Positions 2,015 through 45,701 of a stretch of 64,000 nt of DNA are shown one piece after another. The notes beneath the pieces are model-generated. The model was not told the origin of the DNA. It did no database searches and saw nothing but the letters and a program-made list of their open reading frames with translations. Source of the stretch: Mesostigma viride. Taxonomy: Eukaryota > Streptophyta > Mesostigmatophyceae > Mesostigmatales > Mesostigmataceae. Made by a program: the position numbers and the translations under genes. Where the stretch lies: the NCBI GenBank assembly GCA_009746045.1, contig RPFO01000176.1, forward strand, positions 2,501 through 66,500, read 5' to 3'. Numbering within the stretch: the stretch's first letter is position 1; each line of letters starts with the position of its first letter.

Positions 2015-5000
2015 TTGCTCAACCTAACCAGGGAGAATGGCGGGCTGCGGGACAGTCATGTGTCCGTGGCGGGCTGGCAGGGCCCTGCCGCTAAACCCTT
2101 TGCCATGACTGCGGTCCAGGTAATGGTCATCCTCAACCCGCTCAGGCCATCCGACATGGCCTGCATCCCTGTGAATGCCCTTGTGACCGAGCAGTCATCG
2201 TATGACGTGCTGGTCGGCATGGAGGTCATGTTTCCCATGCGGCTCGAGGTACGCATGTGGGAAGGCCGCGCGGTGTACATCGTTGACAGAGACGGTGACG
2301 CCATGCGCCAAGCAAGCATCCCGGTGAGCTGCTACAGCTCGGACAATGGGGCAGTGCGTGTCTCGACGGTCAACCGGGTCGAGGCTGGCTCGCACGACGC
2401 GGTGGTGGAGGTACGGATGGGGGAGGTCACGGCAGCTGGGGGGGCTGTGCGTGATAAGCATCGGCCGTGCATCCCAACAGCGCTGGTGGGACGGGCCTCA
2501 TTGCACAGCACGTGGGCGGCGCGACAGCAGCCGCAAGCGCGGCAGGCCCTTTTGCGTCAGCACGTCACCAACGCGGTGCGGCAGCAACAACTCTCTCATC
2601 TCCCGCGGCAATCGCAGTCACAAGTGGCTGTCGCGACTACCGAAGGTAACTTCTGTGCCGATGTTGTGGCAGAGTCGCGGGTCTTGTCCGAAGGGGTTGT
2701 ATTGCTAGAATTGTTTGCTGGGATGGGAGGGGGGCTGGCTGGCTTTCTCGCTGCAGGCGGTACGTGCCACACGTTGATCGCCGTAGAGCCGTCTCCTACC
2801 GCTCGGGCAGTGTATAGGCATCACTGTGCCCAGCTGTCTGCCCTGTATCCATCTCAGTTTCCTCCGTCTGCGTGGACAGATCCGTTTGGGGAGTGCCCTC
2901 AGGATATCCGCGCCATTGGGGAGGTTCATGTGCGAGGCCTTTTGAGGCGGCACAAGAGGATAGACCTCGTCCTCGCGGGCTGGGAATGTCAGGCCGGCGT
3001 AGGACGCGGGCTTGCGGATCCTAGGAGCGGGTTGTTTTGGGATCTGCTTCGAGTCGTTGGACTCTTGCAGCAGCTGCAGGACCAGCCACTAGCGTATCTT
3101 TTTGAGAACGTGGTGGCCGACGACAGCCCTCACGAGGTAGTGAGGAAGGACTGGGCCCAGATCGTGGACATCTTAGGGGCACCAGTCACGTGCGACAATG
3201 CAGGATTGGGCGGGCTCACCCACAGGTACCGCGCATTCTGGACCAACCTTGCACTCACCACCACCATCCAGGCAGTGGTAGATGCGATCACACGACAGCA
3301 CGACGGCATGCCCGCGGAGGTGGCGCTGCCACCACATTTGGTCACGCAGCGGGTAGACGTCGCCGATCGGCACCCTTACGCGCCCGTCAATCACGTAGGT
3401 AAGCCTATGTGCGCTCTTCCCACCTTGGTTAGTTACCAGGGGTCATCGGCCTACAGGGACCGGGGCAAGGGTTTGGTATGGGACACCGGTACGGGTTTGT
3501 TGGTGCAGCCGCCCGCTGAGTTTCGGGAGGTGAGCATGGGGTTCCATGTGGGGGCGTCCGCCGCTGAGGGGGTTTTAGAGGCCACTAGGTGGTCTCTCGT
3601 TGGGCAAGCCATGTCAGCCTTCCAGGTTGGGTATGTTCTGCGGGCCGCAATGCAAGTGCGCCAGGGTGGGGGAGATATCCCCACACCGCCACCGCCTGTC
3701 AGTGCCCACGCGGCTGGTGTCCGGCCAACAGCGTCCGGCGGCACTGGGTCGCCATGGAGATCGCGGCTGCTTCAACTATGGAGCGTTATCCTCATGACGT
3801 CCTTGTTGTCCAGCACGGTGTTCGCTGGAGCGCCCACCCTGCAGCAATCGGTCGGTCGCGCAGTCCGTGCCATTCAGCAGGTGAGCGTCACACCCGGTGT
3901 AGCCGCATTTTCCCTTTTCCACGATGCCGCTGTCCGGGGGCCTTGTCTCGACAGTAGGAGTGCCGCAGTCGCAGATCCTGCTGCCTCTCACATATGGGCC
4001 ATAGGTGAGCACCTCACCGCCACGCAACGCAAGGCTATGGAGCACTGGTTGCATTCTGCACGCTCAGTTTTCGCTTTCAGCAGTGAAGAACTAGGGTGCT
4101 ACAACGGGGGCTGCATGGGGGTCCCACTAGATACGGATCAGCCCTTATTCAGGCGGCAGCATAGGCTGAGCTTGGCTGAGCTGGAATTCGTAGATGCTAA
4201 CTGTCGAGAGCTAGAGGCAGCTGGGATCATCCGCGCTTCATCCTCCAGTTATGCAGCTGCCACGGTGGTCGCACCCAAGAAGGATACCATCACAGGCGAG
4301 TGGACAGGTATGCGCATGGCCACTGACCTGCGTCAGCTGAACGCGCACACTCCTGTTGATAGGTACCCCATGCCTCGGGTCGATGATGTTTTGGATAAAA
4401 TATCTCCCCAGGTCAAGTATGTGTCGTCGCTAGATTTGCGTAGCGGCTTCCATCAGATCAAGGTCGTAGAGGCAGATCAGCGCAAGCTGGCCTTTTGGGG
4501 TGGGACCCGTCTGTACGAGTGGGTTCGCATGCCATTCGGACATCGCAACGCTAGTGCGGTGTTCCAACGTGCCATGGACCAGGTGCTGGCAGGGTTGCCA
4601 TTTGCAGCCTGCTACATAGACGATGTCATTGTCTTTAGCGAGACATTTGACCAGCACTTAGCTCACCTCGATCAGGTTCGGATCGCCCTAGATAAGGCCA
4701 ACCTGCGGCTGCACCCTGAAAAGTGCAAGTTCGCCCAACAGACCATAGGGTTTCTTGGTCATCAGATTGTACCAGGTGGCCGGACCCCTGAGGCAGCCAA
4801 AGTGGAAGCCATCAGCAACGCCGCAGTGCCCATCGACATCTCGGGGGTGCGCGCGTATCTCGGGCTAGCTGGCTATTATCGAGGATATATTCAGAATTTC
4901 AGCACCAAAGTCAAACCCCTGACTGAGTTGTTGAAGAAGGGCAATGTCTGGGCGTGGGGTCCGGCTCAGCAGCGAGCCATCGATACCATCAAACAGGAAC

Positions 5001-5824
5001 TGACTGCCGCTCCTATCCTACGCGCCCCCGACTATGCTCTGCCCTTCATTCTTTACACCGATTGGTCCAAGGTAGGCCTAGGGGCTGTGCTAGCACAAAA
5101 GGACGATGCGGGGCGCGAGCATGTTATCGCGTACGCTAGTCGGAGTAACAACTCTGCCGAGAGTCGGTACTCTTCCTACGAGGGGGAAGCGTTAGCCGTT
5201 GTGTGGGCCATCAAGCACTTCAGGCCATATCTCTTTGGGCGGGTGTTCACACTTGTCACTGATCACCAGCCCTTATTGTGGTTGATGACCAGCGACAAAC
5301 TCACGGGTAAGCTGGCCCGGTGGGCAATGATCATTCAGGAGTACCACCTGACAATCGTCCATCGGCCAGGTGTGGATCACTCCAACGCGGACGTCCTGTC
5401 CAGGTATGCTCTACCAACCACTGTTGACAACACTGGTGCGCGGGCCCTAGGGGCCGAGAGCTCGCCTGGGTCTGTGGTTTTTGTTAATGCTGCAGGCTTC
5501 GCTGACGCCGACGCCGAGGCAGACTGGCGCGCAGTCGAGTATACAGTCGCAGACTTTGCGGCAAGCTGCAATGCAGTTCACCCTTCTCCCTTCACCCCTG
5601 CCGCTGGCCTCCTCGCGTTGGAGGAAGGTAATTCTCCGTCCTTTGACATTGACAATACCTTGGCACGATACCTAGCACTCCAGGTGGTGTTGGTTGGCCA
5701 TCTCACAGTGGAATGCAACATGGGTGATGTGTGGCTCGATGGGCGTGTGTTGGAGCAGGTCCAAGGGATAGCTCTCACCCCACCCCGGTTGATTGGTCCT
5801 CAGCCCAGCGTGACGCTGAGTTGA
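2015..5824 (+). CDS. Ty3/gypsy polyprotein with embedded cytosine-C5 DNA methyltransferase (PR remnant-MTase-RT-RNase H)
   Basis: Retroelement polyprotein, open for about 1269 codons. The frame opens at a TTG, so the true 5' end is probably lost. Residues 60-76 (YDVLVGMEVM) match the end of a retropepsin; the catalytic DTG part and Gag are absent. Residues about 228-545 form a C5-MTase: motif I ELFAGMGGG (232-240), motif IV GWECQ with the candidate catalytic Cys (325), motif VI ENV (364-366), a THRYRAFWTN block (402-411) and a motif-X-like LVGQAM (528-533). RT follows (SLDLRSGFH 805-813, YIDD 867-870, FLGH 913-916), then RNase H (YTDWSKVGLG from 1014, EGEALAVV, TDHQPL). A hydrophobic stretch near 585-605 lies between MTase and RT. 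The frame ends at 5824 and the integrase continues in another frame. By family knowledge the MTase would methylate DNA cytosines; activity here is not shown. Confidence 0.93.
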   Translation: MLNLTRENGGLRDSHVSVAGWQGPAAKPFAMTAVQVMVILNPLRPSDMACIPVNALVTEQSSYDVLVGMEVMFPMRLEVRMWEGRAVYIVDRDGDAMRQASIPVSCYSSDNGAVRVSTVNRVEAGSHDAVVEVRMGEVTAAGGAVRDKHRPCIPTALVGRASLHSTWAARQQPQARQALLRQHVTNAVRQQQLSHLPRQSQSQVAVATTEGNFCADVVAESRVLSEGVVLLELFAGMGGGLAGFLAAGGTCHTLIAVEPSPTARAVYRHHCAQLSALYPSQFPPSAWTDPFGECPQDIRAIGEVHVRGLLRRHKRIDLVLAGWECQAGVGRGLADPRSGLFWDLLRVVGLLQQLQDQPLAYLFENVVADDSPHEVVRKDWAQIVDILGAPVTCDNAGLGGLTHRYRAFWTNLALTTTIQAVVDAITRQHDGMPAEVALPPHLVTQRVDVADRHPYAPVNHVGKPMCALPTLVSYQGSSAYRDRGKGLVWDTGTGLLVQPPAEFREVSMGFHVGASAAEGVLEATRWSLVGQAMSAFQVGYVLRAAMQVRQGGGDIPTPPPPVSAHAAGVRPTASGGTGSPWRSRLLQLWSVILMTSLLSSTVFAGAPTLQQSVGRAVRAIQQVSVTPGVAAFSLFHDAAVRGPCLDSRSAAVADPAASHIWAIGEHLTATQRKAMEHWLHSARSVFAFSSEELGCYNGGCMGVPLDTDQPLFRRQHRLSLAELEFVDANCRELEAAGIIRASSSSYAAATVVAPKKDTITGEWTGMRMATDLRQLNAHTPVDRYPMPRVDDVLDKISPQVKYVSSLDLRSGFHQIKVVEADQRKLAFWGGTRLYEWVRMPFGHRNASAVFQRAMDQVLAGLPFAACYIDDVIVFSETFDQHLAHLDQVRIALDKANLRLHPEKCKFAQQTIGFLGHQIVPGGRTPEAAKVEAISNAAVPIDISGVRAYLGLAGYYRGYIQNFSTKVKPLTELLKKGNVWAWGPAQQRAIDTIKQELTAAPILRAPDYALPFILYTDWSKVGLGAVLAQKDDAGREHVIAYASRSNNSAESRYSSYEGEALAVVWAIKHFRPYLFGRVFTLVTDHQPLLWLMTSDKLTGKLARWAMIIQEYHLTIVHRPGVDHSNADVLSRYALPTTVDNTGARALGAESSPGSVVFVNAAGFADADAEADWRAVEYTVADFAASCNAVHPSPFTPAAGLLALEEGNSPSFDIDNTLARYLALQVVLVGHLTVECNMGDVWLDGRVLEQVQGIALTPPRLIGPQPSVTLS

Positions 5825-6435
5825 ATAGGGTGCAACATAGGGCGGTCACCTACTCGTGGGATGCCGGGGTCCTCCACAAAATGATCGGCAAGCGCAAAGT
5901 GGTGGTGCCGCCGCCTCACAAGCGGGTCGCCATCGTCCAGCAAGCCCATGAGCGGTATGGCCACCTGGGTGGTAACCGCACTTTGGCGCTAGTGCGCGCC
6001 TCTTATTGGTGGAACGGCATGCGTGCCACAGTCGCGCAGGTCGTCGCTCGCTGCGCGCAGTGTGCCCGGGTGAAGGCCCGGTTCAATGTGGACCACGATG
6101 CGAAAGAATTGATGAGCCTACCCATCAGAGGGCTCTTCTACCGCTGGCACGTAGACCTGTGTGGGCCCTTTGATGAAAGTGCAGATGGCCACAAGTATGT
6201 CATGGTGTGTGTCGAAAGTTTTAGCAAGTGGGTCGAGCTCATCCCCATTGCTGACAAGCAGGCCGCCACCACCGCCAAGCACTTCGCCGACATCATCGCC
6301 AGGTTTGGCGCCCCCGCGGAGGTGGTCACCGACCAGGGCGGGGAGTTTCGGGGGAATTTCAGGAATTGTTGGATGCATGTCTCATTGATCACCGTCGCAC
6401 TTCTCGGAGCATCCTCAGGCCAATGGTTTGGCTGA
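5731..6435 (+). CDS. Ty3/gypsy integrase, zinc-binding and catalytic core (frameshifted)
   Basis: This frame continues the polyprotein after the stop at 5824, one base out of register. It carries the H2C2 zinc module (HERYGHLGG...CAQCARVK) and the catalytic core: first Asp in WHVDLCGPF, second in VTDQGGEF. The frame is lost after the second Asp. Compared with the duplicate at 9521, this copy lacks one G in the G-run near 6351-6355 and one G near 6405, so the catalytic Glu region is read in the next frame. The gene is probably non-functional as sequenced unless those runs are miscalled. Confidence 0.88.
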   Translation: MARWACVGAGPRDSSHPTPVDWSSAQRDAELNRVQHRAVTYSWDAGVLHKMIGKRKVVVPPPHKRVAIVQQAHERYGHLGGNRTLALVRASYWWNGMRATVAQVVARCAQCARVKARFNVDHDAKELMSLPIRGLFYRWHVDLCGPFDESADGHKYVMVCVESFSKWVELIPIADKQAATTAKHFADIIARFGAPAEVVTDQGGEFRGNFRNCWMHVSLITVALLGASSGQWFG

Positions 6436-7258
6436 GAGATTGGTGCAGACTGTCAAGCAGGCTTTGCGCAAGTGGAGCCTGCAGTCAGCATCATTCACTA
6501 TGTGGGATCGTGAACTGGCGTGGATAGCCATGGGTTACCGAATGTCACCCCAGGAGTCGCTCGCCTGTTTCTCCCCGTATTTCCTGTTGTTTGGGCGCGC
6601 ACCCTTGCTCCCCACGGAGGCGCAGAGTGCACACCCCACCCCTATGGCGTTTGACAACGCCAGTCAGTTTCTGGCTGAGGTGACCGCACGGGCGGCTACT
6701 TTCCGCAAGGTTATGCCCATCGCCATGAACAACTTGTTCATCGCCCAGCACCGAGATACCCTGCGCTACGCTCAGCGCCGGGGGGGCGCTTACATGGCCC
6801 GTCAGCTGCATTTTCGTCCGGGGCAGTTCGTATTTCTCCGCACGCAGCTGACCGACACTCTTGACGTGACTGCGGGGCCGACCATCTTGCGGATCGTCGC
6901 CATCAAGCCATCTGGGGTCGCCATTTTGGAGGGCGTCGACGGCAGTCGCACCACCGATAACGTAAGCAACCTCAGTCCGTGTTCGTTGCCCAACTTATTG
7001 CCTGACCTCGCCCCGCACACGGCCAGGCGGGTCAAGGACGCACAGTGTCAGGTTTGCCATCGCGTAGACCAGGGGGATACCATGTTGCTGTGTGATCACT
7101 GTAATTGTGGGTGGCACATGCACTGCTTGCAGCCAGCGCTCACCACCGTGCCAGCGGGCCAGTGGTTTTGCCCAGTTTGTGTCGCTGCCCGTTTCGCAAC
7201 CAGTAGCGTCACCATTTCCTTAGCTGCTGTGGTGTTGGCACGGTCGCTGGCCATGTGA
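6428..7258 (+). CDS. Ty3/gypsy integrase C-terminal part with terminal PHD finger
   Basis: Begins with the LAERLVQT segment that holds the third catalytic residue (Glu) of a DDE integrase, then the connector and a C-terminal barrel-like region (RPGQFVFLRTQLTD...GPTILRIVAIKP). The end is a C4HC3 PHD finger: CQVC, then CDHC, GWHMHC and CPVC. Many Ty3 elements end in a chromodomain that reads histone marks; by analogy the PHD finger may target integration, which is inference. A purine-rich run just after the stop (AGCGAGGGGGGAA) fits a polypurine tract before the LTR. Confidence 0.88.
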   Translation: MAERLVQTVKQALRKWSLQSASFTMWDRELAWIAMGYRMSPQESLACFSPYFLLFGRAPLLPTEAQSAHPTPMAFDNASQFLAEVTARAATFRKVMPIAMNNLFIAQHRDTLRYAQRRGGAYMARQLHFRPGQFVFLRTQLTDTLDVTAGPTILRIVAIKPSGVAILEGVDGSRTTDNVSNLSPCSLPNLLPDLAPHTARRVKDAQCQVCHRVDQGDTMLLCDHCNCGWHMHCLQPALTTVPAGQWFCPVCVAARFATSSVTISLAAVVLARSLAM

Positions 7259-12312: not shown

Positions 12313-13678
12313 TTATGACAAGGGTTTCCCAGCCATCATGGACCGCAGCAACTGGTACCCATTAAGGGCCAGTCGTGGAAGCTTGGTCATAGCATCAGCA
12401 GGATTTGAATATCCTGGCAGATGTATGGTCATACAGTGGCTGGACAACTCCTTTGCCACAAGGTAGTCCAAGTCAGTAGTAGTGGCCCTCTCATTCTTGA
12501 TAAAAGAGACCACGGGCTTATTATCACAATAAACCCTGACATCAATCACAGGTTGAGGTCTTATCTGACTCAGACACCATAAGAGTAGCTCTCTTATGTA
12601 TATGGCGTCGCGAATGCACATGGCGTATGCCCTGCACTCGGCTGTGTCAATGCCAGCAAACCGCCTCCTCTGAAGGTTACTGGACCAGTATACCAACGAG
12701 GGCTGTTTGCCTTCATTCCTGATGGTGATCAGGCATCCGGCTCTGGCACCAATCTTGTTGGCAGATCTAGACTCTTGGCTAGCATCTGTGTAGGCGTCTA
12801 AGATGATACGCCTATGACAGTCTACACCAGACAACACCAAATCAGGAGATTCATTGAGGCAGCTCTCCAGGCGCCTCCTTCCTTCTCCTACAATAACAGA
12901 GTCTGGCATCCTACTCTGTACTGCCAGGTCAGGGTTAGTTGTGGCAGCCAGCCAACCTAGTTGACCTTTAACCGTAGGGGCATTCTCCTCACTTACTCTC
13001 TTGGGCAACTGAGTTATCAGTTTTTCTCTATACCCCTTCGCCGATTGCAGCTTAAGATGCCATCCTTTGTCATCTTGGAAAAGGGTACAGCCAATGCCAC
13101 AGTAAGGTACCTGGCTGTTTTTAGTAAACCATGCTCTGGTACCAATAGGGGACTTGTCATTGAGCCTTTTATAGGTCTCATTCAACCATCCCTTGGGACC
13201 AATGCGTTGCATGTCATCCCCATGTAAGGTAGCCCAGGTGGGTTGTCCCTTGGATTGCCCTACAAAGAGACAATAGGCAAGATGAGATTGTTGCATCTGA
13301 CATCTCTCTTGGATGGCAGGAGCAATGGTTTCATACCAAATGACTGGACTGCTGACCAGTCCTTCCCAGCCCACTTTAGGCTGCATGTAGGGATAACCTA
13401 CTTCAGCTAACCAGCATGCTGGGGTCTTGACACAACAGGGTCTTTGAGATTGCCAAGTGGCTCTGGCCACCTGAGGATCACCATGCAAAAAGGCCCTGGT
13501 GAAGTCATCAACTTCTGCTCCATAATCCAAGCCATAATCCAAAGCACCAAGGTATAGACTAAGAATAAGCCTGAGAACAGGATGTGACAGGCCAGGAGTG
13601 TACAGCTCCTCCTTATCAAAGTCTGTAGTACCATGGAACTGGGTTACGACTGGACGTGCGTTTGGTATAGGAGGCTCA
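12313..13678 (-). CDS. Copia-like RT (palm onward) and RNase H, 3' piece of the split minus-strand element
   Basis: Minus-strand pol fragment. The frame is open from the edge of the TTAA element (13678) to the stop at 12313. RT: the ARPVVTQFHG finger block, first catalytic Asp in the segment EVDDFTRAFLHGDP, then TWATLHGDDMQ, which stands where Copia elements have YVDDM. RNase H follows (DAYTDASQES, TAECRAYAM, VYCDNKPVV, NPADAMTKL). Equivalent blocks occur in the intact element at 41003-44685, so the assignment is firm. The rest of pol lies at 15405-17260 and 27461-28205. A 3' LTR is not visible: sequence past 12300 runs into Ty3 LTR DNA at 12250. Confidence 0.92.
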
Positions 13679-15404: not shown

Positions 15405-16410
15405 GCTTGCTCTTCATCTTGCATACAAAACGCAACTGAAGCATTTGAGCATTGGGTGGAGGTTCTGAAATGCCTTCAAAAACATCCAGCGTTTGCCACT
15501 CCTGGAGCGCACGCGCCAATGCTAGTCGCCAGGCCTCAAGGCCAGCGAAAGTGTGACAATCCAGGTCTACATCATCAAAGGACATAGGACTATGAGCAGC
15601 AAATGACCTTTTTGTAAGACCACTAAGAGAGGTCACACTGAGCTGGGCAGGTTCTACCAGCTCAGAAGCTGGGGGCATATCCCTTCCCCATTCTGCTCCT
15701 TTTATTACTGAACCGACACAGGCGGTCTTCCAATGTGCCTTCTGGAATATTTCAAGAGGCAAGGAACATCTGAATGATTCCAGAGGAATTGGGTCACAAT
15801 GGGTTTTTAGGAGACTCTTTGTGTTATTGGGGCTATCAACAATGGTAACACCGGGAGTCACCAAGAATGGCTGGCCAATGAGAGTGGGCCCCTTGTAGCC
15901 ATCAACAACACAAAGTGTCAAAGACTCACCCAAGAATGGGATAGTGATATTCCCAAGAACTTGATGATTAGTGTTACCCGCAAAGTCTTGGACATTAGTC
16001 CATGGACTGGGTTCAAGGGAATACTTATCCAGCAAAGCATTAAAGGGTGAGGTGACAGAGACCTCTGCTTTGGTATCCACATCAAAGCCATCAAGGTCCA
16101 TGTCCTTCTCTAGAAGAGAAGTTATTTTGGCAATCTTTAGTGAAGGCTTGAGCTTCTTTACAATATCCCGAAGCTCTTGAGGATTGCCCCTCTTTCCGAG
16201 CTGAGTGTTCAACCTGGACAACCCCTCCTCAGCCTGTCTTCCTTGGGCTGGTATTTTCCCATCAGTCTCCAAGGGCAATGGCTTATTACCAGGGTAATTG
16301 AATCCAAGCTTTGGCTGTTCAGACTGAAATATGTTATCCACCTGCCCAGGGGTCTCAAGCCCATGTTCCAACGGCCGGAGCTTCCGGTGCTGATCAGGCA
16401 CCCTATTATC
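15405..16410 (-). CDS. Copia-like retropepsin-like domain and RT start, middle piece of the split element
   Basis: Minus strand; in frame with the integrase piece at 16411-17260 but separated from it by one TAG stop. About 100 polar residues lead to a retropepsin-like domain: DVDTKAEVSV (Asp codon near 16077) in place of DTGA, then a strand-rich middle and GYKGPTLIGQPFL, which matches the conserved retropepsin end. The RT N-terminus follows (WRLALARALQEWQTLDVF, LRFVCKMKSKL), interrupted at 15404 by the TTAA element. The protease therefore lies after integrase and before RT. Confidence 0.87.
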
Positions 16411-17260
16411 CTACAAGTCAGCTTCAAATATATCATCCTGTGATATCCGGGCAGTCAATGTCTTAGGCTGAGCTTGCTGAGTAGTAGGCTCCAGTTGATG
16501 GGAGGCCGCCCTTTCTGGTAGTTGGAGTCCAGCCTGTTCACTGGCCAAAGGTGGACAGGAAAGATTGTGAGATCCAGATGCCTCTTCAGGGGCCATATTT
16601 ACCAGGGGATTTTCTTCATTAAATTGAAAGTTCATTGGATCTCTCTTCAATCTATTCCAAGCCAGATGATAAGTGGTACCATTCCAGACCACATCAGCAG
16701 TTTTCATCTCCGGGTCAACTGAGGTTATGGTCCCTGGACCCTGCCAATAACCGCGTTTACCAGGAGCATTTTCTTTGTGGAAGATCACCTGGTCTCCCAC
16801 CTTAAATTTTAATGATTCTCCTCTCTGTTTATCCTTTTCACAGAGGTGAGTATACTGTGTCCACCTCTGCTTACTCCATGCCTGCATTATGTCATCAGGG
16901 TAGAGGCCACCTGCTAGTCCACGAGGTGAGACCAGCCATGGAACACCACGCACTTTGAAAGTATGAAGACGGTTGTACATGGTGTTTTCCACTTTTGCAG
17001 CACCCAAACACCTGACAGCAAAAGTTGGTTTAAAAATCTCAGGATAATCCCCAGACATCACCAACTTCTTAAGCTCCTGTATATATCTGTCAACCTTGCC
17101 TTGGGCTTGATGATCTTCACGACCCACAATCCTTAGGAAAGGCAGATCAGAGTATTTGGTCAGGCAGTTAAACTGCAAGTCCATCTGCAGCTTGTGAATG
17201 ACTGCAAACTTCTGCAGAATAACAAGAACTGCAGCATGGAGGGCATGGAGGGCATGGAAG
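16411..17260 (-). CDS. Copia-like integrase, second half, of the split element
   Basis: Minus strand. Starts at the edge of the compound insertion (17260). KLQMDLQFNCL holds the second catalytic Asp. GREDHQAQGKVDRYIQEL aligns with LEDHEGQGVIERTIRSV of the element at 41003 and has Asp where the catalytic Glu is expected, a sign of inactivation. The integrase C-terminal barrel follows (FKVGDQVIFHKENAPGKRG, TYHLAWNRLKRD), then a Pro/Gln-rich linker ending at the TAG stop. Three near-identical CATGCCCTC units sit at the insertion edge (about 17230-17258). Confidence 0.88.
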
Positions 17261-27460: not shown

Positions 27461-28205
27461 CTGTATTCTCATCCTCTGCTGCCATAGGTTCAATTCCAAT
27501 GTAGCCTGACCATTCATCCACAGCCACCAAGTAAGGCAATTGCCTGTAATTGGTGAAGTAGAGGATATCAGCTTGTAGATTACCCCTACCATCTGCAGGA
27601 TGCTTTGCATGACGTTTGAAAGGCTTGTTAGCACACAATTGGCACACACAATGTTCTCTGACATCTTGATAAGCCTGCCAGAGAGCCTTGTTATTAATGG
27701 CTTGAACAAGCCTAATGGCATTGTTTCCATGGCCACAGGCATCATGCAAACTCTTAGCCAAAATCCTAAGATTAATACAATCATTAGGTGATGGCTCTTC
27801 AGGACATGGATAGGCATCCACGTTCCTGGCAGAGCAAGAGTCCAAGTTTTTATTATCAATACAACAAGGATTATTGCTCTGAGGAGCTTGACTGTTAACA
27901 ATATCAATGGGTGCTTGGCTACAAGCAGGAGCTGCACCACATGTATTGTTCACAGATATGTTGCTCACTTGGGCAACACTGTGTGGCATCTGTCTACAAA
28001 CAGGAGCAGATCCACATGTATTATTTACAGAAAGAGTTCCCTCTGGGGTACTCTTTTTATTCCAGGCATGGATAGGAATGCCACAAACAGGGGCACTTTT
28101 ACTGCTGCTCACTGGGGCAGCTATACGGTCATTAGGAGTTACTGCTGGAGCCCCTACCACCTGGCAGGCCTCTTCTGCCACGAAACCACTCTCATCAACG
28201 TCCAT
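27461..28205 (-). CDS. Copia-like pol start: integrase zinc module and first catalytic Asp
   Basis: Minus strand with its own ATG at 28205 (MDVDESGFVAEEACQ), 38 nt after the gag stop and in a different frame. About 150 residues of low-similarity linker, with two NNTCG.AP.C repeats, lead to the integrase HHCC module (LHDACGH ... CVCQLC) and the first catalytic Asp in LQADILYF. No retropepsin motif occurs between gag and integrase. The frame reaches the compound insertion after AAEDENTV and picks up insertion sequence before stopping. Confidence 0.9.
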
Positions 28206-36975: not shown

Positions 36976-37882
36976 AAAACTCCTGCACAATTACGTGTGG
37001 TGACTGACAAGTTTAATGATGCTTGGCTAGACAGGATCATAGACGGTGATGATGGTCGTGATGAGATGATTTTGTGCGGGGACTATATTGAAGTGTCGTG
37101 AAGTTATGGTGATGATGGCTGTAACATGGGGATGAAATTAAGTGACCTAAAATATTTTTAATGCAATACTTGTTGACTTGGATCATGACCCACACAATCA
37201 TATCATAACTGTAACCTTATATGAATCTGGCATGGCAACATGAAATAAGCACATATGTGCACTACACACAGCACAATGAATACACGCAAGTCCCCACCTT
37301 TTTTTTTGGAAATGCTACAAGTTTACATCTTCAGCTCTTGCATTAGCCTAGGTATCTTTTTTTTTTTTGCAGGGCTGCGTTAGGAAAAAAGCACAGGACG
37401 TAAGTGTTTCAGCCGTGCAGTAACCCTTGATAGCAGCGCTTTTTTTTGCAGGGCTGACTTAGGCAAAAAACACAAGTCCTAAGCCAAAAGCAGATTTGTG
37501 TCATAAAGGAGGTTTTGCTTTGGACTTAGGTTTTTTTCATTACTTATGTAAGTTTGAAAAAAAAAAGTCTGAAAGTCCGGGCAAAGGTGAATACAACAAA
37601 AATGGATAGCTGATAATAAAGGAAAGCTGGAAAGTCAAGTTTGCTAGTTCAGTTTATTCGAGAGCTTCCTAGTTCCTACAGTACGCCAACTCTCTTCTGC
37701 CCATGCGCGGCGTGGGGAACAACAACAACAACAACAACAGCAACGCCACGGCCACGCCAAGCTGGCCACAAGTTTTGAAACCAGGGGTTCCGAGTTCCAA
37801 CCTGTAGTCGTTCGTATCTTACGCGTAGGTTTGTGCAGTCACTGCGGTGACGTATGACGGAGCGCGGAATCAGAATACCTAC
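36976..37882. other. Non-coding stretch up to the Copia 5' LTR
   Basis: AT-rich with several T and A homopolymers, the right 27-bp repeat (37590-37616) and an AAC trinucleotide run (about 37721-37738). Ends in CCTAC (37878-37882), the target duplication of the Copia-like element. Confidence 0.7.
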
Positions 37883-38355
37883 AGTTAGTCTCCATGCTTT
37901 GCTGTAGACTAAGTCTCAAAGGCATTGTGAATACAACGTATGAATAAGCCTTGTAAACCTACGTTGGTATGTGAATATAAATACCACGTGGGCTATGCAG
38001 ATAGGAATGCTAGTCGAGTCGCATACGTTTCCCTAGATAGGTACTTTGGGTACTGAGGTACGTGACAGATGTCAGTACCCAGTATACGTAGTGTCCTGTC
38101 ATTGGACGGTACTAGAGTATCCTAGATAGGGACCGTACTGCAGCGTGCATTGATTTGTGATCGCACGATGCAGTGACTAGACTGCTACCTGTCATCGTGT
38201 GGCCTCGGGCCAACGGTCTGCACCCAACGGTCACTGGCGGCGCAGCCGGTGAGAGGAACGTTGATAAAGGGTAAACCTATTTTCTAATGAACCAAGCAAT
38301 TCATTGCTCCAAGCCTTCAGTGTTCTCAAGCAATATATCCCACCGCATTCTAACT
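37883..38355 (+). repeat. 5' LTR of the Copia-like element
   Basis: 473 bp, AGTTAGTCTCC...GCATTCTAACT, with 6-bp inverted termini. It should contain the promoter; no TATA box can be assigned with confidence. Confidence 0.94.
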
Positions 38356-38373
38356 TGAATTTTATTTGCTACC

Positions 38374-41169
38374 ATGGCTATCACGAACAAGACTGTCGCT
38401 AAGAAGCTTTCCTACAACGAGGATGATGATGGGCAGGATCGGCGGATGCCCAGAGACAACAACAAGAAGCCGGCTGGCGATGCGGCCATTTCCAAGAAAA
38501 AGAAAAAGAACAAAAAGACTCACAATGGTTGCCAGGACGAGGGGACGGCGGCTGCAAAGCCGACCGACCTACCCCCCTCCCCTGCGAGGCCGGAGGCCGA
38601 GACGGCTCCCCCCGGGGAGACCGGCTTACCCTCGACTCCGGCGGCCGCCCCAGCCGCAACCACGGCTGGCGCGGCCATGGCTGCGGAGACCTCGGTGGTA
38701 AACCCCACTGAGGCTCCACAGTCCGGCCCCACGTTGCCATCTCTTCGGGAGCGTATGCCCCGTCAGACGGCCTCGGTGGCACCGGACGGGACGATTACCT
38801 TTCGTCCCGCCACATCAAACCTTAATGTCCCTTTCGCCCAGGGACATAACCACATTGAGCTAACGTTTGGGCGACCCTCTGCGTCCCTTCTTCGCAAGAA
38901 GAAGGACATGGAGAGTATTAAACTCGCACGGGTGGTGCGAAAACCTGTGGAACCCATCGCCGGACAACCAATGTCCGACGATGAGGTATCCGACACTGCC
39001 AGTCTCCCCGATGGGGAGACTGAGATCAATCTTACCCCAGCGCTCCTGGCGGTCGAGCAGGCCGCGCTGGTGGCAAATGAAGAACGCCGAGAGCGGCAGC
39101 GGGACCGAGAGGTCCGCCGAGAGGCGGCTTTTCGGCTCGCCGCTAAGCGGCAAGAATATGAAGAGGAAGCCGCCCGTCGCCTGGCTACCCACCAGGCGAT
39201 GGCGGACGCGTACCGCGAGGCCACCCAGCGGTTACGTGACCTCTTAAAAAATGCTGACTATCCCATGCACTATGCGGACAGTCAAGACCTGGCCGAGCTT
39301 GCTCGGTCAGCACACTTTAAAACCATGTCCTCCATCACCCAAGCCAGGGTCACGGAGGCCATCTTGGCCAAACATGGGGTGGTAGCTGAAGAAGCCCCCC
39401 CGCTGGAAACCACCAGCAAGAAACCCTCTCCCCCCCAACCCCTGCAGTACAAGGAGGGACTGCTGGCCCTGGGCGCGAGGAAGGGCAAAGAGGCGGACTG
39501 TCCAGTCCGGCCTGCTATGATCATGGGAGAACCACTCCCTGACATACCCGAGGATGAGGCTGCTTTTCAGGCAGCCCTCCGGGAGCATGAGGTACGCAAG
39601 GAGATGAAGCGTCTCATGCGGGAGGAGGCCAGGAGGAGAGCAGAGGCAGACACCCCTGCCCGCCCCTCCACCGATGGGGCTGGACCCAGTGGGGTTACCC
39701 GGACACCCCCGGGCTCCCCCAGGGCCACCATGACCCCCCCTCCCCCTCCCCCACCACCCCAGGTTCGCCCTGTGGGTTGGGGCCCCCTCCCAAACCAGGG
39801 GGGGTGGCCAGGACCCCAGGAGGCCCTGGGGGGAGGTGCAGAGGTGCCACAGGCACCCAACAGGCCTGCTGAGGCCCCCCCAAGGAGCGGGGATGTCCTG
39901 GAACAGCTCGCCATTCTCCAGGCCCAGCTGGCCTCGTTGCAAGATCAGCAGTTAACAGCTAACCAGCTGCAAACTGTCGAGGGCCTGCGCGCCCTGATGT
40001 CGCGGTATGAGCGGGGGACCATCAACCTGGACCCCACCCGCCTGCAACAAGCAACCGACAGCTTCTTGAGGGCCAACCCCCCTCTCACAGGTGTGTTTAA
40101 CCCTCATAAAAAGGAATCCAAAATCAATATTGCTGGCTTGCCTGAGGGTCACACTGTTGAACAAGCTAAGCAATTTGTTTTTGCTTTGGAGTATGGGATG
40201 GAAGGTCTTAACCTTAGACATCAGTTTAAGGCTCTCAGGGCCTCCTCCACATTCCATCAATCATCTCCTGCAATCAGAGCATTGATTCAAACCTATCAGG
40301 AACGTACCCTGACACCTGAAGCAGCCATTGAACAGTGGCCTACCTTTATCACTGATCTGAAACAGCTAGTGCTTACCAATAACCACATGGAAGCAGTAGA
40401 ACGTTTCAACTGGCTTGCTGCATATAAGGTGAACAAGAATAACCTCTCTGGGGATGCAAAAACATACAGGGTAATGATTGAGAAAGACCTTGAGCTTCTC
40501 AAGCTCCAACCAAGGTATCTCATCCACACCTGGCTAACAAAAGCTAATTTGCAACCTTCTGTCCTGGCTACCCTGCTTACAGGCCTCAAGTCCCTCTGGG
40601 ACAACTTCAGAGCTGCCATGCTCTATATCGAGGAGGCAGTGGACCCCCTGGGTACTGGCAACAACCAGGCCCAGGACCCCAAGGTCCAGGGTGTCCAAGG
40701 CCACAAACGCAAGGGGCAGGCCAGCCAGGGGGGGCACCCAAGACCCACAAGTCCTCCCACCAAGGGGGCAGTGGCTCTCAGGGGCGTGGCAACACGTGGC
40801 ACCGTGTGCCCCTGCATGGCAACCCCAACAACAACAACAACAACAACAACAACAGGTCCCAGCAGGGCAACAATAACAACAGGTCCCAACAGGGCCAAAA
40901 CAACAACAACAACAGGTCCCAGCAGGGCCAGAACCGGTCCCAGCAGGGAAACAACAACAACAACAACACAACAACAACCAGCCTGGCAACCCTGGGGGGT
41001 CCATAAGGTGCCTGAGGTGCTTCCAACGAGGGCACGCACGGCACAACTGCCCCAACAACGACTCCCTGGCCAACGGGGTGGATCTCTGCCCGGGCTGCTG
41101 GCACGCACGTCATCCCCTGGGGCCTCCAGGCAGCCGTTGCAACAGGCCTCGCTACCCAAATCAATGTGA
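38374..41169 (+). CDS. Copia-like Gag with long N-terminal extension
   Basis: Starts at ATG 38374. The first about 560 residues are disordered and charged: Lys-rich start, Pro/Ala-rich blocks, an Arg/Glu-rich coiled-coil-like part (ERRERQRDREVRREAAFRL) and poly-Pro. The capsid-like part follows (about 40080-40660: TGVFNPHKKESKINIAGLPEG, ALIQTYQERTLTPEAAIEQW). After the seven-G run near 40730 the biologically sensible frame (Asn/Gln-rich, SGSQGRGN then NNNN and NRSQQG repeats) is -1 to this one, so residues after about 785 here are probably not the native tail. The DNA is much more GC-rich before about 40070 than after. Confidence 0.88.
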   Translation: MAITNKTVAKKLSYNEDDDGQDRRMPRDNNKKPAGDAAISKKKKKNKKTHNGCQDEGTAAAKPTDLPPSPARPEAETAPPGETGLPSTPAAAPAATTAGAAMAAETSVVNPTEAPQSGPTLPSLRERMPRQTASVAPDGTITFRPATSNLNVPFAQGHNHIELTFGRPSASLLRKKKDMESIKLARVVRKPVEPIAGQPMSDDEVSDTASLPDGETEINLTPALLAVEQAALVANEERRERQRDREVRREAAFRLAAKRQEYEEEAARRLATHQAMADAYREATQRLRDLLKNADYPMHYADSQDLAELARSAHFKTMSSITQARVTEAILAKHGVVAEEAPPLETTSKKPSPPQPLQYKEGLLALGARKGKEADCPVRPAMIMGEPLPDIPEDEAAFQAALREHEVRKEMKRLMREEARRRAEADTPARPSTDGAGPSGVTRTPPGSPRATMTPPPPPPPPQVRPVGWGPLPNQGGWPGPQEALGGGAEVPQAPNRPAEAPPRSGDVLEQLAILQAQLASLQDQQLTANQLQTVEGLRALMSRYERGTINLDPTRLQQATDSFLRANPPLTGVFNPHKKESKINIAGLPEGHTVEQAKQFVFALEYGMEGLNLRHQFKALRASSTFHQSSPAIRALIQTYQERTLTPEAAIEQWPTFITDLKQLVLTNNHMEAVERFNWLAAYKVNKNNLSGDAKTYRVMIEKDLELLKLQPRYLIHTWLTKANLQPSVLATLLTGLKSLWDNFRAAMLYIEEAVDPLGTGNNQAQDPKVQGVQGHKRKGQASQGGHPRPTSPPTKGAVALRGVATRGTVCPCMATPTTTTTTTTTGPSRATITTGPNRAKTTTTTGPSRARTGPSRETTTTTTQQQPAWQPWGVHKVPEVLPTRARTAQLPQQRLPGQRGGSLPGLLARTSSPGASRQPLQQASLPKSM
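40818..40980. repeat. (AAC)n-rich microsatellite within gag
   Basis: Runs of AAC/CAA triplets interrupted by copies of a GGTCCCAGCAGGG-type unit. In the likely gag frame it codes Asn runs separated by RSQQG. A place where length changes are easy. Confidence 0.9.
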
Positions 41170-44080
41170 GTTCACTCACCTTATGTACTCTGAGGATGAT
41201 GATCTCATTACCATTGGGGATGGCAACCAGGGCATAATTGATTTTGAGGCAGCAACCTTACTGTCCTCCCAACACCCTGTTCTGGAACCTTACATAAAAG
41301 CACTAACCCCTACTGTTGACAACTCCATAGATATCAAGGAGCTTGCTCATCAGCTGCACCTAGCCATGGGTCATGAAACAGTGGCTGAGGAACTGGCCAG
41401 ACGGCTGGGGGGTAGTAGCATGGGAAAACAACTCAGGAATGCAGTAAAACTGGCTAGACAACACTGTCAAGAATGTCAGTTCAATAGCCCCAAACCTCAA
41501 AAATGGCATACTGCAACTCCTTCCACCAATAGGGGCATGATAGTGGGGGATGTGATGCACATCAACAAAGATGTCCAACCCTACCTGATCCTAAAAGACT
41601 CATGGTCCAGGTTCACAGTAATGGAACCCCTACCTGGCATGTCTGCAGGGCAGCTACGTGTTGCACTCATGATTGCTTTACCCAGATTCTACCCAGTTGA
41701 CAGAATTTTGCTTGATCAACAATTTTCTTGTCTGACTGACCTGGAAGGGTGTGAAGCAATAGAGATTGCTGGGCTGGAAGATCATGAGGGTCAGGGGGTC
41801 ATTGAAAGAACCATCAGATCTGTCAAAACCCTACTAGCCAAAAATCCTTCCAAGGATGCTACTTCAGGGGTCTATTGTGACAGGGCACTCTGGTGTCATG
41901 AAATGTGCACAACCCTAAACATGAGACCTGTCTTGCATGCCACGTGGGGTGAAGTAATCCCAGCAGGCCTGCAGGCAGGTGTATATCCCCCAGAGGTGAT
42001 AGCACTGTACAACACTGCACGTGCACAAACCTCAGCAAAACTGGCAGAAAAAGATAAAACCCATTCCAGGCCAGTATTCCAAAAAGGTGATCAAGTTCTC
42101 TATTACAAGGAAAACAGCTTTGGTAAGGTTGGAACTTGGCTAGGTCCAGTTACCATCCGTGGATTTACCAAAAACAGCAAGACCGTGGAGGTCAAGCACA
42201 ATATCAATGGGAAGCGTCACAGGGTGAGCTGTCATAGAATTAAGAAGTATTATTCTCCCATGGCAGACGTGCCTGGGGAAGAGTCTTTAAGCATGGACTC
42301 ACTACTTCTATCTGGCAACTCCAGCATGCCCAGCAGTAGCTCTGAGCCACCAATTACTGCTGTTGACAGCACCACAGCACCCTCTGTGAACCCTTCCACC
42401 CTCAGTGAAGCCAGGCCCACTTCACAACCTGGGGATTGCTTAACCAGGCACGAGGTAGCTGGGTTGGAAGCATTAGCTCAGCCCCAAGGCACGAATTGTC
42501 TGCCAACCTCCCGCTCTGAGGTCAAATTGGCAGTCGCCTTGCAAGCATTACACAGGTCACATAAGCAACAAGCTGCTGTGGCCGCAGGGTTGGCAAAAGT
42601 CTCAGCTGTGTGCACTAGTCAGGACCCCTGGACCCTGGCAATAGACACTCAGGCACAGGTCAGTGTGATCAGTGCACAAGCCATCCCTGGTCTTGAGATT
42701 GCACCTTCATTTTGGGCACGGGTGCAGGATTTCTCAGGCCAAAGCTCACTGGATGTAGTGGGACAAGTGATGCTCCCTATACTTGGTATTCAGACACCCT
42801 TCCAGGTGGTGGAGGGGTACTCTGGTAACACCTTGTTGGGGGAACCTTTTGTATCCTATCCTGGGGTGCTTATCTCAGCTAATGAGCTCAGTGTCACAGG
42901 GGTGGGTGCAGTTCCTCTGGACCACTTTAAAATCCCTCTCTCCAGTATTGTCCCTGGTATGGATGCTGTCATCAAGGCAGTCAACACTCAGTATGCACCA
43001 GGGGAGATCCCTGATCTGGACAAGTTAGTGCACAGCCAGTTCCTCCATCCCTCAGCCTTTGGGCTGGGTAAGTGGGACATAGCCATGCACTCACCCCACC
43101 AAATCTCCCACGTCATACAAGAATGCAAAACACAAAAAGGGTTTACCAAGTGGCTGATGGCCATTGTCCACCAAGCCAGGCAGGAATGGGTCCTGCCCAA
43201 CCCCAAAAACCCTCAATACAAACCGCCTGTCACCCCTTCATGGGACGTGCCAGAGGGAGCCAAAAAGCTCAGATTAAAATTTGTTCTCAAACAAAAACCA
43301 CAAAAAGTGGGCTCCCCAATCTTCCATGCCAGACCATGTGTCACAGAATTAAAGGGGACATCCACACTGCCAAAAGGGGAAACATACACACCTGGGCTGC
43401 AACAAACCTCACTCAGGATCATGCTCTCCCTATTCCTCCACAACCTCAATGCAGGCCAAGACTATGTCTGCAAAGCCACTGATATTAAAAGGGCCTTCCT
43501 CAGGGGGGACCCAGAAAAGGCTGAATCTGTGTGGAAAGGGAAGGTGTACGTGGTAGACACCCCAGCTGTGTGGAAACCTTATATTGATGAGCCCCACCTT
43601 ATCATCAACATTGGGGTGGAAGGGCTTGTCAGTGCCCCAAAAATTTTCAGAGACTCAGCAGAGGAAGTATTCAAAAAGCTCAAGGCCACGTATGATGACC
43701 TGGACCCATGCTTTTTTGTTGTACCCACCCCCTCTGGACTGCTGTTCTTTGTGTGGCATGGAGATGACCAACTCATTTGTGGGCCTAGAGCTGAGGTGGA
43801 AACCTTTATTCAGCAGGTCCAGGAATCATATGAGATTGGCAAACAGGTGGAATTGAGCACAACCCCCATCCAGTTCTGTGGCATCATGTTGCAGCTGCAC
43901 AGGCAGCCAGATCAATGGGTCTGCTCTCTCTCCCTCCTGCAGAATATATCAAGATTGTCTAGATCTGCTGCATCACACCTGCCTCCCCTTACACATGTGT
44001 GCCACTGTTCAGGGCAAACTGGGGTGGTGGTCAGCCATCTGTGGGGCTCCCTTAGCTGTCATCAGCAGGGTCACCCATGA
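41003..44080 (+). CDS. Copia-like Pol: zinc knuckle-integrase-retropepsin-like-RT
   Basis: The frame is open from about 41003, starting with the Gag knuckle CLRCFQRGHARHNC and a second Cys/His cluster. Counting from 41078: integrase HHCC (H94, H99, C130, C133), catalytic Asp 158 (VGDVMHI), Asp 213 (LLDQQFS), Glu 243 (GVIERTI) and C-terminal barrel 335-390 (QKGDQVLYYKEN). After a Ser/Pro-rich linker comes the retropepsin-like domain: Asp 523 in LAIDTQAQVSV, conserved end EGYSGNTLLGEPF (579-591). Then RT: KWLMAIVHQARQEW, ARPCVTELKG, Asp 802 (ATDIKRAFLRG) and WHGDDQLI (893-900). The frame leaves the RT tail near 43960 and stops at 44080. The order IN-PR-RT differs from Copia elements generally. 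Confidence 0.93.
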   Translation: MRCLRCFQRGHARHNCPNNDSLANGVDLCPGCWHARHPLGPPGSRCNRPRYPNQCEFTHLMYSEDDDLITIGDGNQGIIDFEAATLLSSQHPVLEPYIKALTPTVDNSIDIKELAHQLHLAMGHETVAEELARRLGGSSMGKQLRNAVKLARQHCQECQFNSPKPQKWHTATPSTNRGMIVGDVMHINKDVQPYLILKDSWSRFTVMEPLPGMSAGQLRVALMIALPRFYPVDRILLDQQFSCLTDLEGCEAIEIAGLEDHEGQGVIERTIRSVKTLLAKNPSKDATSGVYCDRALWCHEMCTTLNMRPVLHATWGEVIPAGLQAGVYPPEVIALYNTARAQTSAKLAEKDKTHSRPVFQKGDQVLYYKENSFGKVGTWLGPVTIRGFTKNSKTVEVKHNINGKRHRVSCHRIKKYYSPMADVPGEESLSMDSLLLSGNSSMPSSSSEPPITAVDSTTAPSVNPSTLSEARPTSQPGDCLTRHEVAGLEALAQPQGTNCLPTSRSEVKLAVALQALHRSHKQQAAVAAGLAKVSAVCTSQDPWTLAIDTQAQVSVISAQAIPGLEIAPSFWARVQDFSGQSSLDVVGQVMLPILGIQTPFQVVEGYSGNTLLGEPFVSYPGVLISANELSVTGVGAVPLDHFKIPLSSIVPGMDAVIKAVNTQYAPGEIPDLDKLVHSQFLHPSAFGLGKWDIAMHSPHQISHVIQECKTQKGFTKWLMAIVHQARQEWVLPNPKNPQYKPPVTPSWDVPEGAKKLRLKFVLKQKPQKVGSPIFHARPCVTELKGTSTLPKGETYTPGLQQTSLRIMLSLFLHNLNAGQDYVCKATDIKRAFLRGDPEKAESVWKGKVYVVDTPAVWKPYIDEPHLIINIGVEGLVSAPKIFRDSAEEVFKKLKATYDDLDPCFFVVPTPSGLLFFVWHGDDQLICGPRAEVETFIQQVQESYEIGKQVELSTTPIQFCGIMLQLHRQPDQWVCSLSLLQNISRLSRSAASHLPPLTHVCHCSGQTGVVVSHLWGSLSCHQQGHP

Positions 44081-44120
44081 TGTTCTAGTCAAATCAAATG
44101 CAGTCACATCAGGAAGTTGA
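43960..44120 (+). CDS. Copia-like RT-RNase H connector in a shifted frame
   Basis: Frame 3 here reads TVQGKLGWWSAICGAPLAVISR, matching the GQLGWLAATTNPDLAVQSRM segment at 12313-13678. So one indel near 43950-43990 moves Pol into this frame, and another near the C-run at about 44130 moves it on to the RNase H frame. Confidence 0.75.
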
Positions 44121-44160
44121 TCCATGACTGCCCCCCCTCATCCTCCATGGCCTGAATCTG

Positions 44161-44685
44161 ATGGAAGACATCCACATCCACAGTGTCATGGACAGCTCCA
44201 TGGAGAGCAGAACAATCAATCAGATGGGGGCACGGGAATCAGGGCTGTTTTTTCTCACCAACAGGTCAGATTACATGTCCCTCACTTCCTGGTACAGCAG
44301 GCTACACCGCAGAAAACCTGGCAGCAGCAACTCAGCTGAATGTCGTGCTGTGGTGTCTGCTGCATTGCATGCTCGTTCCCTGCAGCACATGCTCACCTGG
44401 CTACAAACCCAGGCAGGCAGCACATGCAATGTCATCTCACATCTCTATACTGACAGCCAATCTGTGATCAGTTTTCTAACCAAGAAATCTGTCTCTGCTG
44501 CTGTCCACACTGACCTGGATTGGGTGATCCTCAAACAGGAGGCCACCTATTTTTCCAGCTGGACTCATGTGGATGATGAGGACAACCCAGCAGACGCTCT
44601 CACGAAGCTGCGGGATGCTGCTGGCCAACAGTACCAGCTCCTCTTTCAGAACATGAACCCCTATGATATCAGAGTCAGTGTTTGA
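44161..44685 (+). CDS. Copia-like RNase H
   Basis: 174 codons; the first few may precede the real junction. SSMESRTINQMGARESG stands for the first acidic strand, NSAECRAVVSAALHARSLQ holds the Glu, LYTDSQSVISFL the Asp, and DEDNPADALTKLRD is the conserved Copia tail. Stop at 44683-44685, 375 bp before the 3' LTR. Frameshifted relative to RT, so the pol genes of this otherwise young copy are split into at least three frames. Confidence 0.9.
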   Translation: MEDIHIHSVMDSSMESRTINQMGARESGLFFLTNRSDYMSLTSWYSRLHRRKPGSSNSAECRAVVSAALHARSLQHMLTWLQTQAGSTCNVISHLYTDSQSVISFLTKKSVSAAVHTDLDWVILKQEATYFSSWTHVDDEDNPADALTKLRDAAGQQYQLLFQNMNPYDIRVSV

Positions 44686-45059
44686 ATAAATGACTGGCCA
44701 TAGCACAGTACACAACCACCACACCCCCTTACCACAGCGATAGCTGCTGGGCGCCATAAAATTCAACACATTCGTTGTGGGGTGTGAGTGCTGGCTAGGT
44801 CAGATTTGTATCCATTTGCAGCTTGAGGACACAAGCTTTGTATCCATTTACTTAATGTGTGCTTCAGTAACTGGCCAAACCAGCCAGCTGTGTACACCTT
44901 ATTTAATGTGCAATATAACACCTGGCCAGAACAGCCAGCTGTAACCAACCTGGCTCAACCAGCCATGTCTCTTTTGTACCCCTAATCAACTTAAAAACAA
45001 TAACAATAATGTTGGGGGTGCAGACCTGCATTAAGAAATAAATAATAAAACAATACTGG
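44686..45059 (+). other. 3' untranslated region of the Copia-like element
   Basis: Non-coding; contains three loose repeats of a GGCCA.ACCAGCCAGCTGT-like phrase (about 44871-44965). The bases before the 3' LTR (ATAATAAAACAATACTGG) are not a good polypurine tract. Confidence 0.75.
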
Positions 45060-45532
45060 AGTTAGTCTCCATGCTTTGCTGTAGACTAAGTCTCAAAGGC
45101 ATTGTGAATACAACGTATGAATAAGCCTTGTAAACCTACGTTGGTATGTGAATATAAATACCACGTGGGCTATGCAGATAGGAATGCTAGTCGAGTCGCA
45201 TACGTTTCCCTAGATAGGTACTTTGGGTACTGAGGTACGTGACAGATGTCAGTACCCAGTATACGTAGTGTCCTGTCATTGGACGGTACTAGAGTATCCT
45301 AGATAGGGACCGTACTGCAGCGTGCATTGATTTGTGATCGCACGATGCAGTGACTAGACTGCTACCTGTCATCGTGTGGCCTCGGGCCAACGGTCTGCAC
45401 CCAACGGTCACTGGCGGCGCAGCCGGTGAGAGGAACGTTGATAAAGGGTAAACCTATTTTCTAATGAACCAAGCAATTCATTGCTCCAAGCCTTCAGTGT
45501 TCTCAAGCAATATATCCCACCGCATTCTAACT
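45060..45532 (+). repeat. 3' LTR of the Copia-like element
   Basis: 473 bp with the same termini and, by eye, the same sequence as 37883-38355; followed by the target duplication CCTAC. Confidence 0.94.
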
Positions 45533-45701
45533 CCTACCTCGATAAAAGTGATTTTTTTATGTATTGATTGTCAAGGAGAAAACGTAGCGAGGCTATGGCG
45601 GCGTAGAAGATAGCAGGCGATAGCTTCGGCCATTCGCGACCAGCGACAATGATACCAACGGATTCGCCGTGAAAAGGTGCGTCTAACGATACCCATATAT
45701 A

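Follow-up and report, generated by a model that had tools for sequence, protein, structure and literature searches.

Can a Copia-type retrotransposon carry its protease on the far side of integrase? The question is raised by an LTR element in a window of 64,000 nucleotides from Mesostigma viride (contig RPFO01000176.1, positions 2,501 to 66,500), where a sequence-only reading had described a Gag zinc knuckle running straight into integrase (IN) and a retropepsin-like segment placed between the integrase C-terminal domain and reverse transcriptase (RT). We put the probability at roughly 80% that this element belongs to a Copia-type lineage of LTR retrotransposons with the pol order (CCHC)-IN-PR-RT-RH and a retropepsin-like domain of Gypsy or clan AA type (PR) between IN and RT. 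Throughout, "protease" is used of this domain for a homology suggested by sequence comparison, and its catalytic activity is putative.

The window element, a copy of what we call family F1, spans 37883-45532; the range first assigned to it, 41003..44080, was too narrow. All of its features lie on the forward strand. Its 5' LTR (37883..38355) and 3' LTR (45060..45532) are 473 bp long and 100% identical, end in AGTTAG...CTAACT rather than TG...CA, and are flanked by the target site duplication CCTAC (37878-37882 and 45533-45537). It is a young LTR retrotransposon. The LTRs are intact, as had been claimed, but the copy as a whole is not fully so, Gag, pol and RNase H lying in different frames.

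The Gag open frame (38374..41169) encodes 931 amino acids and has no Pfam match, and the pol open frame, which differs from it in frame (40877..44080), runs from the zinc knuckle to RT and ends upstream of RNase H. Within pol, the CCHC zinc knuckle CLRCFQRGHARHNC lies at 41009..41050 (zf-CCHC_3, E 5e-4) and is followed by an integrase with HHCC, D/D/E and a W-x-GP C-terminal domain at 41330..42256, the start being approximate; by eye, the HHCC and DDE motifs fall at 41354-41824 and the C-terminal domain ends at about 42256. A Pfam search gave no match to the F1 integrase, and rve matches the homologous place in family F5 at E 2.8e-5, below its cut-off. We found no retropepsin motif between knuckle and integrase. 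Beyond the W-x-GP domain comes a linker and then the retropepsin-like domain (42629..42901), with LAIDTQAQVSVIS from 42635, D-T-Q at 42644-42652, an LLG motif within 42812-42850 (EGYSGNTLLGEPF from 42812) and RT downstream. On both counts the pol frame bears out the sequence-only reading. RT, identified by motifs including an HGDD box and by Pfam, occupies 43241..43903 and matches RVT_2 at E 8.8e-6 and 25.9 bits, below the curated cut-off of 31.6; RNase H (44161..44685) sits in a frame of its own and has no Pfam match. The junction of Gag and pol is a CAA-rich tract (40826-40978) whose repeats encode poly-Q, poly-N or poly-T, depending on the frame, and the window itself begins with a TAAACCC telomere array (1-1293).

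Across the assembly (440 Mb, 2243 contigs), the window pol has at least 46 scored places at 97-100% identity. In all 20 copies drawn from the best of these, which are distributed over many contigs, a single frame has IDTQAQVSV after IN and before RT. Both LTRs lie within the stretch in 15 of the 20, and each of these 15 has a perfect 5-bp duplication, every one different, so that paired LTRs with a target site duplication are found in the window copy and in 15 of 20 further copies; this test covered copies of F1. Over the integrase stretch, the 21 F1 copies, the window's included, show a single synonymous variant codon, and from this near-identity it follows that the family spread recently. 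The frame of pol relative to Gag varies among the 20 copies (L009-L028), being the same in 5, +1 in 6 and +2 in 9.

The order recurs in sister families. A broken F2 copy on the reverse strand of the window retains the N-terminal part of integrase (27483..27794), the integrase core and C-terminal domain (16459..17241), a retropepsin-like domain, VDTKAEVSV...TLIGQPF, that continues into RT (15412..16080), RT (13060..13671) and RNase H (12334..12807), ordered as in F1 and 28-33% identical to it. Genome-wide, 117 scored matches to F2 turned up, fragments counted in, and in one copy a frame of 1344 amino acids spans IN-PR-RT-RH. A degenerate DNA pattern for the RT motif R-A-F-L-x-G-D-P found 447+413 = 860 places in the 440 Mb, and the reversed pattern found 0+0; among the 100 matches listed there are at least six sequence types, and F3, F4 and F5 were picked from the places found by the pattern. 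F4 (L040) has IN-PR-RT-RH in one frame of 1070 amino acids. In one F5 copy (L039) a single frame covers knuckle, IN and PR, while RT (RVT_2) falls in an overlapping second; another (L038) has IN, PR and RT in three frames with the order unchanged, and the F3 copy comprises PR and the start of RT only, in two frames. In pol, identity to F1 is 32% for F2, 30% for F4 and 43-45% for F5; by domain, F1 and F5 share 72% in PR, 70% in RT and 47% in IN. RVT_2 scores 27.9 bits on F5 and E 0.06 on F4 (cut-off 31.6 bits), and a Pfam search of the F2 RT gave no RVT_2 match.

Several features of these sister families deserve separate mention. In both F5 copies the frame changes from PR to RT at the same place, the frames overlapping. 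The RTs of F4b (L037) and F4 (L040) are 99% identical and their PR domains 72% (dS 1.49), a mismatch that looks like recombinational exchange upstream of RT; both PR types recur in further copies. The F2 integrase (L029) reads GKVDR against GVIER in F1, GVVER in F4 and GLVER in F5, which puts Asp in place of the presumed catalytic Glu; long open frames are numerous in this family.

Ordinary Copia elements of the same genome provide the contrast. An RVT_2 search gave 150 scored places, and three ordinary Copia families found by it show the Pfam order Pol_BBD - gag_pre-integrs - rve - SH3 - RVT_2, in which we take Pol_BBD to be the Copia protease region. These three controls have the canonical GAG-PROT-INT-RT-RH order, whereas F1, F2, F4 and F5 do not, and the rearrangement proposed for the window element holds beyond it. 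It had also been suggested that the order be sought in related genomes; it was found in further families of this one, but no relative came to light outside this genome, a large protein database lying beyond the scope of the search. In an RT tree of 8 rows, drawn from its midpoint, the three canonical families part from the lineage at a 100/100 split. Because the defining domain order was tested and is absent, we call the lineage Copia-like rather than an ordinary member of Ty1/Copia. Two abundant canonical Copia families (L033 and L034) have D-S-A in place of D-S-G in the protease active site, together with long open frames.

What the sequence-only reading overlooked is the catalytic triplet. 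It is DTQ in F1, F3 and F5, DTN in F4 and F4b and DTK in F2 and F2b, never DTG, and the D-[TS]-G of clan AA is missing from every family read. Nor does D[ST]G occur in the window Gag frame or in the F1 pol, F2 pol, F4 (L040) or F2b (L030) frames; F5 has one D-S-G (ADSGSYAD), inside integrase and without visible retropepsin context. In retropepsins the glycine of DTG touches the substrate, and there is no space for a side chain, so that a side chain at this position makes ordinary catalysis doubtful. The domain is nonetheless under purifying selection within clades. Its dN/dS values are 0.12/1.40 for F1-F3, 0.22/1.68 for F1-F5, 0.23/1.96 for F3-F5, 0.19/1.49 for F4-F4b and 0.11/0.52 for F2-F2b, a ratio of about 0.1-0.2 in all five within-clade pairs, with dS high even there. 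In the remaining 16 of 21 pairs, which are between clades, dS is saturated or high (pN/pS 0.55-0.67), and the evidence for selection is accordingly confined to comparisons within clades. The domain has some role visible to selection.

Two accounts of that role deserve serious weight. On the first, to which we give a little under even odds, the domain would be an aspartic protease, acting as a dimer through an altered site (D-T-[Q/N/K]), and would mature Gag-Pol; it would be translated inside an IN-PR-RT precursor and would dimerise as retropepsins do. On the second, the main rival and in our estimate slightly less likely, cleavage would have been lost: what is left of the retropepsin would persist as a non-catalytic fold that gives structure to the IN-RT precursor or lets it dimerise, and the processing of Gag-Pol would fall to canonical Copia or Gypsy proteases acting in trans or to host enzymes, or would barely take place. 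A non-cleaving module would fit the loss of glycine in every family read and the lack of D[ST]G from the window Gag and the F1, F2, F4 and F2b frames, and other elements of the same genome do carry proteases with DTG, DSG or DSA. It fits less well with the D, T and A of the motif, which are invariant in 8 of 8 rows of A4, our profile of eight PR-like domains, and on which a dead enzyme would not depend, or with the purifying selection just described.

Has this order been described before? Among the titles and abstract starts listed in literature searches, none describes an IN-PR-RT order in Copia-type elements, and to that extent the earlier statement that no such Copia group was known stands; repeat libraries, the large protein database and most subscription papers were outside the search. 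A repeat library or a paper could therefore already have the order under a different name, but we think it unlikely, since nothing in those titles and abstract starts describes it and PMC6317226, in the excerpts used here, gives GAG-PROT-INT-RT-RH for 5410 Ty1/copia elements. The same excerpts report that a large plant survey dropped elements of "unexpected order" as likely mispredictions. Domain order is a sorting criterion for LTR retrotransposons, and here a lineage with an "unexpected" order is abundant and recently mobile.

Homology of the domain to retropepsins is, on the comparisons that follow, very probable. The sole Pfam matches on the F5 segment are three aspartyl-protease families, Peptidase_A2_2 (PF12382, E 0.0041), gag-asp_proteas (PF13975, E 0.0084) and Asp_protease_2 (E 0.1), and the F3 segment matches gag-asp_proteas at E 0.016. 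All of these matches fall below curated cut-offs; they start at the D-T motif and extend almost to the end of the PF13975 profile. The F1, F2 and F2b segments have no Pfam match and the F4 segment has one weak, unrelated match. When F5 and F3 were reversed or shuffled to give eight decoys, none hit a protease family, and one had another weak match. Aligned by hhalign with six PF13975-type proteases from the same assembly, A4 matches over 82 columns (P 0.006, probability 6%); of 300 column-shuffled decoys, 1 scored as high. The alignment registers both motifs, VDT[QKN]A with VDTGA and LLGEPF with ILGLDW, and the ILG-like region that the lineage carries toward the C terminus of the domain (LLGEPF, ILGQNF, LIGQPF) pairs with IILGLDW of a PF13975-type protease. 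In the F1 and F2 proteins a loose retropepsin template, written after the motif was seen, matches only at the PR-like place, and it matches 28/20000 shuffled F1 and 17/20000 shuffled F2 proteins.

The domain might instead be a beta-rich module peculiar to this lineage whose likeness to the DT.A/LLG template is fortuitous; about 1 in 1000 shuffles reach that template. In favour of such a module are the lack of a Pfam match at the curated level and of a confident fold. The structure prediction proposed earlier as a check yielded two poor AlphaFold models of the domain (pLDDT 35.8 and 46.3), and fold searches returned only non-significant matches, the HIV-1 and EIAV proteases among them. Neither of the two outcomes named beforehand as refuting the rearrangement turned up. 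A PDB sequence search gave no protease, and unfiltered single-sequence hmmsearch scores overlap those of reversed decoys, F4_rev standing above F1, F2 and F4. Yet chance resemblance is improbable, given that three aspartyl-protease models match F5 and one of them F3 in the same position, that no decoy among the 8 does so, and that the profile match is co-linear at both diagnostic motifs. As for an artefact of assembly error, nested insertion or a lone chimeric copy, which the broken frames of the window copy and the shattered F2 copy might bring to mind, we reject it: all 20 F1 copies, spread over many contigs, share this order, and F2, F4 and F5 show it too.

With a Copia-like lineage carrying a retropepsin-like domain between IN and RT as the preferred reading, its source can be considered. 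The LLG/ILG motif and the profile match point to a retropepsin of Gypsy or clan AA type over a relocated Copia protease. PF13975-type proteases of the same genome stand directly before RVT_1 in L062 and L063, which marks them as Gypsy-type (L063 was outside the six used in hhalign). Because PR adjoins RT, carries LLG/ILG and matches the PF13975-type set at P 0.006 against P 0.22 for the canonical Copia proteases found alongside, it would be more economical to suppose that the Copia protease was lost and one of Gypsy type then captured than that the original was moved; the comparisons themselves are weak. In either case the domain would have been acquired or moved once, in the common ancestor of the F1-F5 families. 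We tentatively suggest that a Gypsy-type retropepsin replaced the Copia one and that it works, or serves another essential task, with Gln, Asn or Lys in place of glycine. Were the domain active, a retropepsin could function without the glycine of DTG; were it inactive, LTR elements could thrive without a canonical protease of their own.

The window also contains a Gypsy-type element (2015-7258), whose open reading frame at 2015-5824 has RVT_1 and RNase H matches as well as a match to DNA_methylase (PF00145; E 5e-5, 23.3 bits, cut-off 22). Gypsy elements with captured methyltransferases are reported from Klebsormidium in excerpts of PMC5890265.

Among the closest known systems is Ty1/Copia (Pseudoviridae), with which the lineage shares IN before RT, a CCHC Gag, LTRs, a 5-bp target duplication and an RT that resembles RVT_2, though below its curated cut-off. 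The lineage differs in placing PR after rather than before IN, in an integrase that ends in a W-x-GP domain, in F1 LTRs that end AG...CT, and in the LLG/ILG of its PR, where excerpts of PMC2642776 give ILS as usual for Copia. With the Ty3/Gypsy elements of the same genome it shares a PR that adjoins RT upstream (as in L062 and L063), and the PF13975-type proteases are its best profile match; yet its IN precedes PR and its RT is Copia-like, whereas Gypsy elements are ordered PR-RT-RH-IN, with IN last, in the PMC6317226 excerpts. Like the retropepsins of clan AA, the domain starts with hydrophobic-x-D-T-x-A and ends with an ILG-like motif, and in F5 and F3 it matches most of the PF13975 profile weakly; unlike them, it has Q, N or K and not G at the third position of the triplet. 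A change of pol order that brings IN before RT is known from Gmr1-like Gypsy elements, but there it is IN that has moved, within a Gypsy element, whereas in the lineage described here PR and IN are swapped in an element of Copia type.
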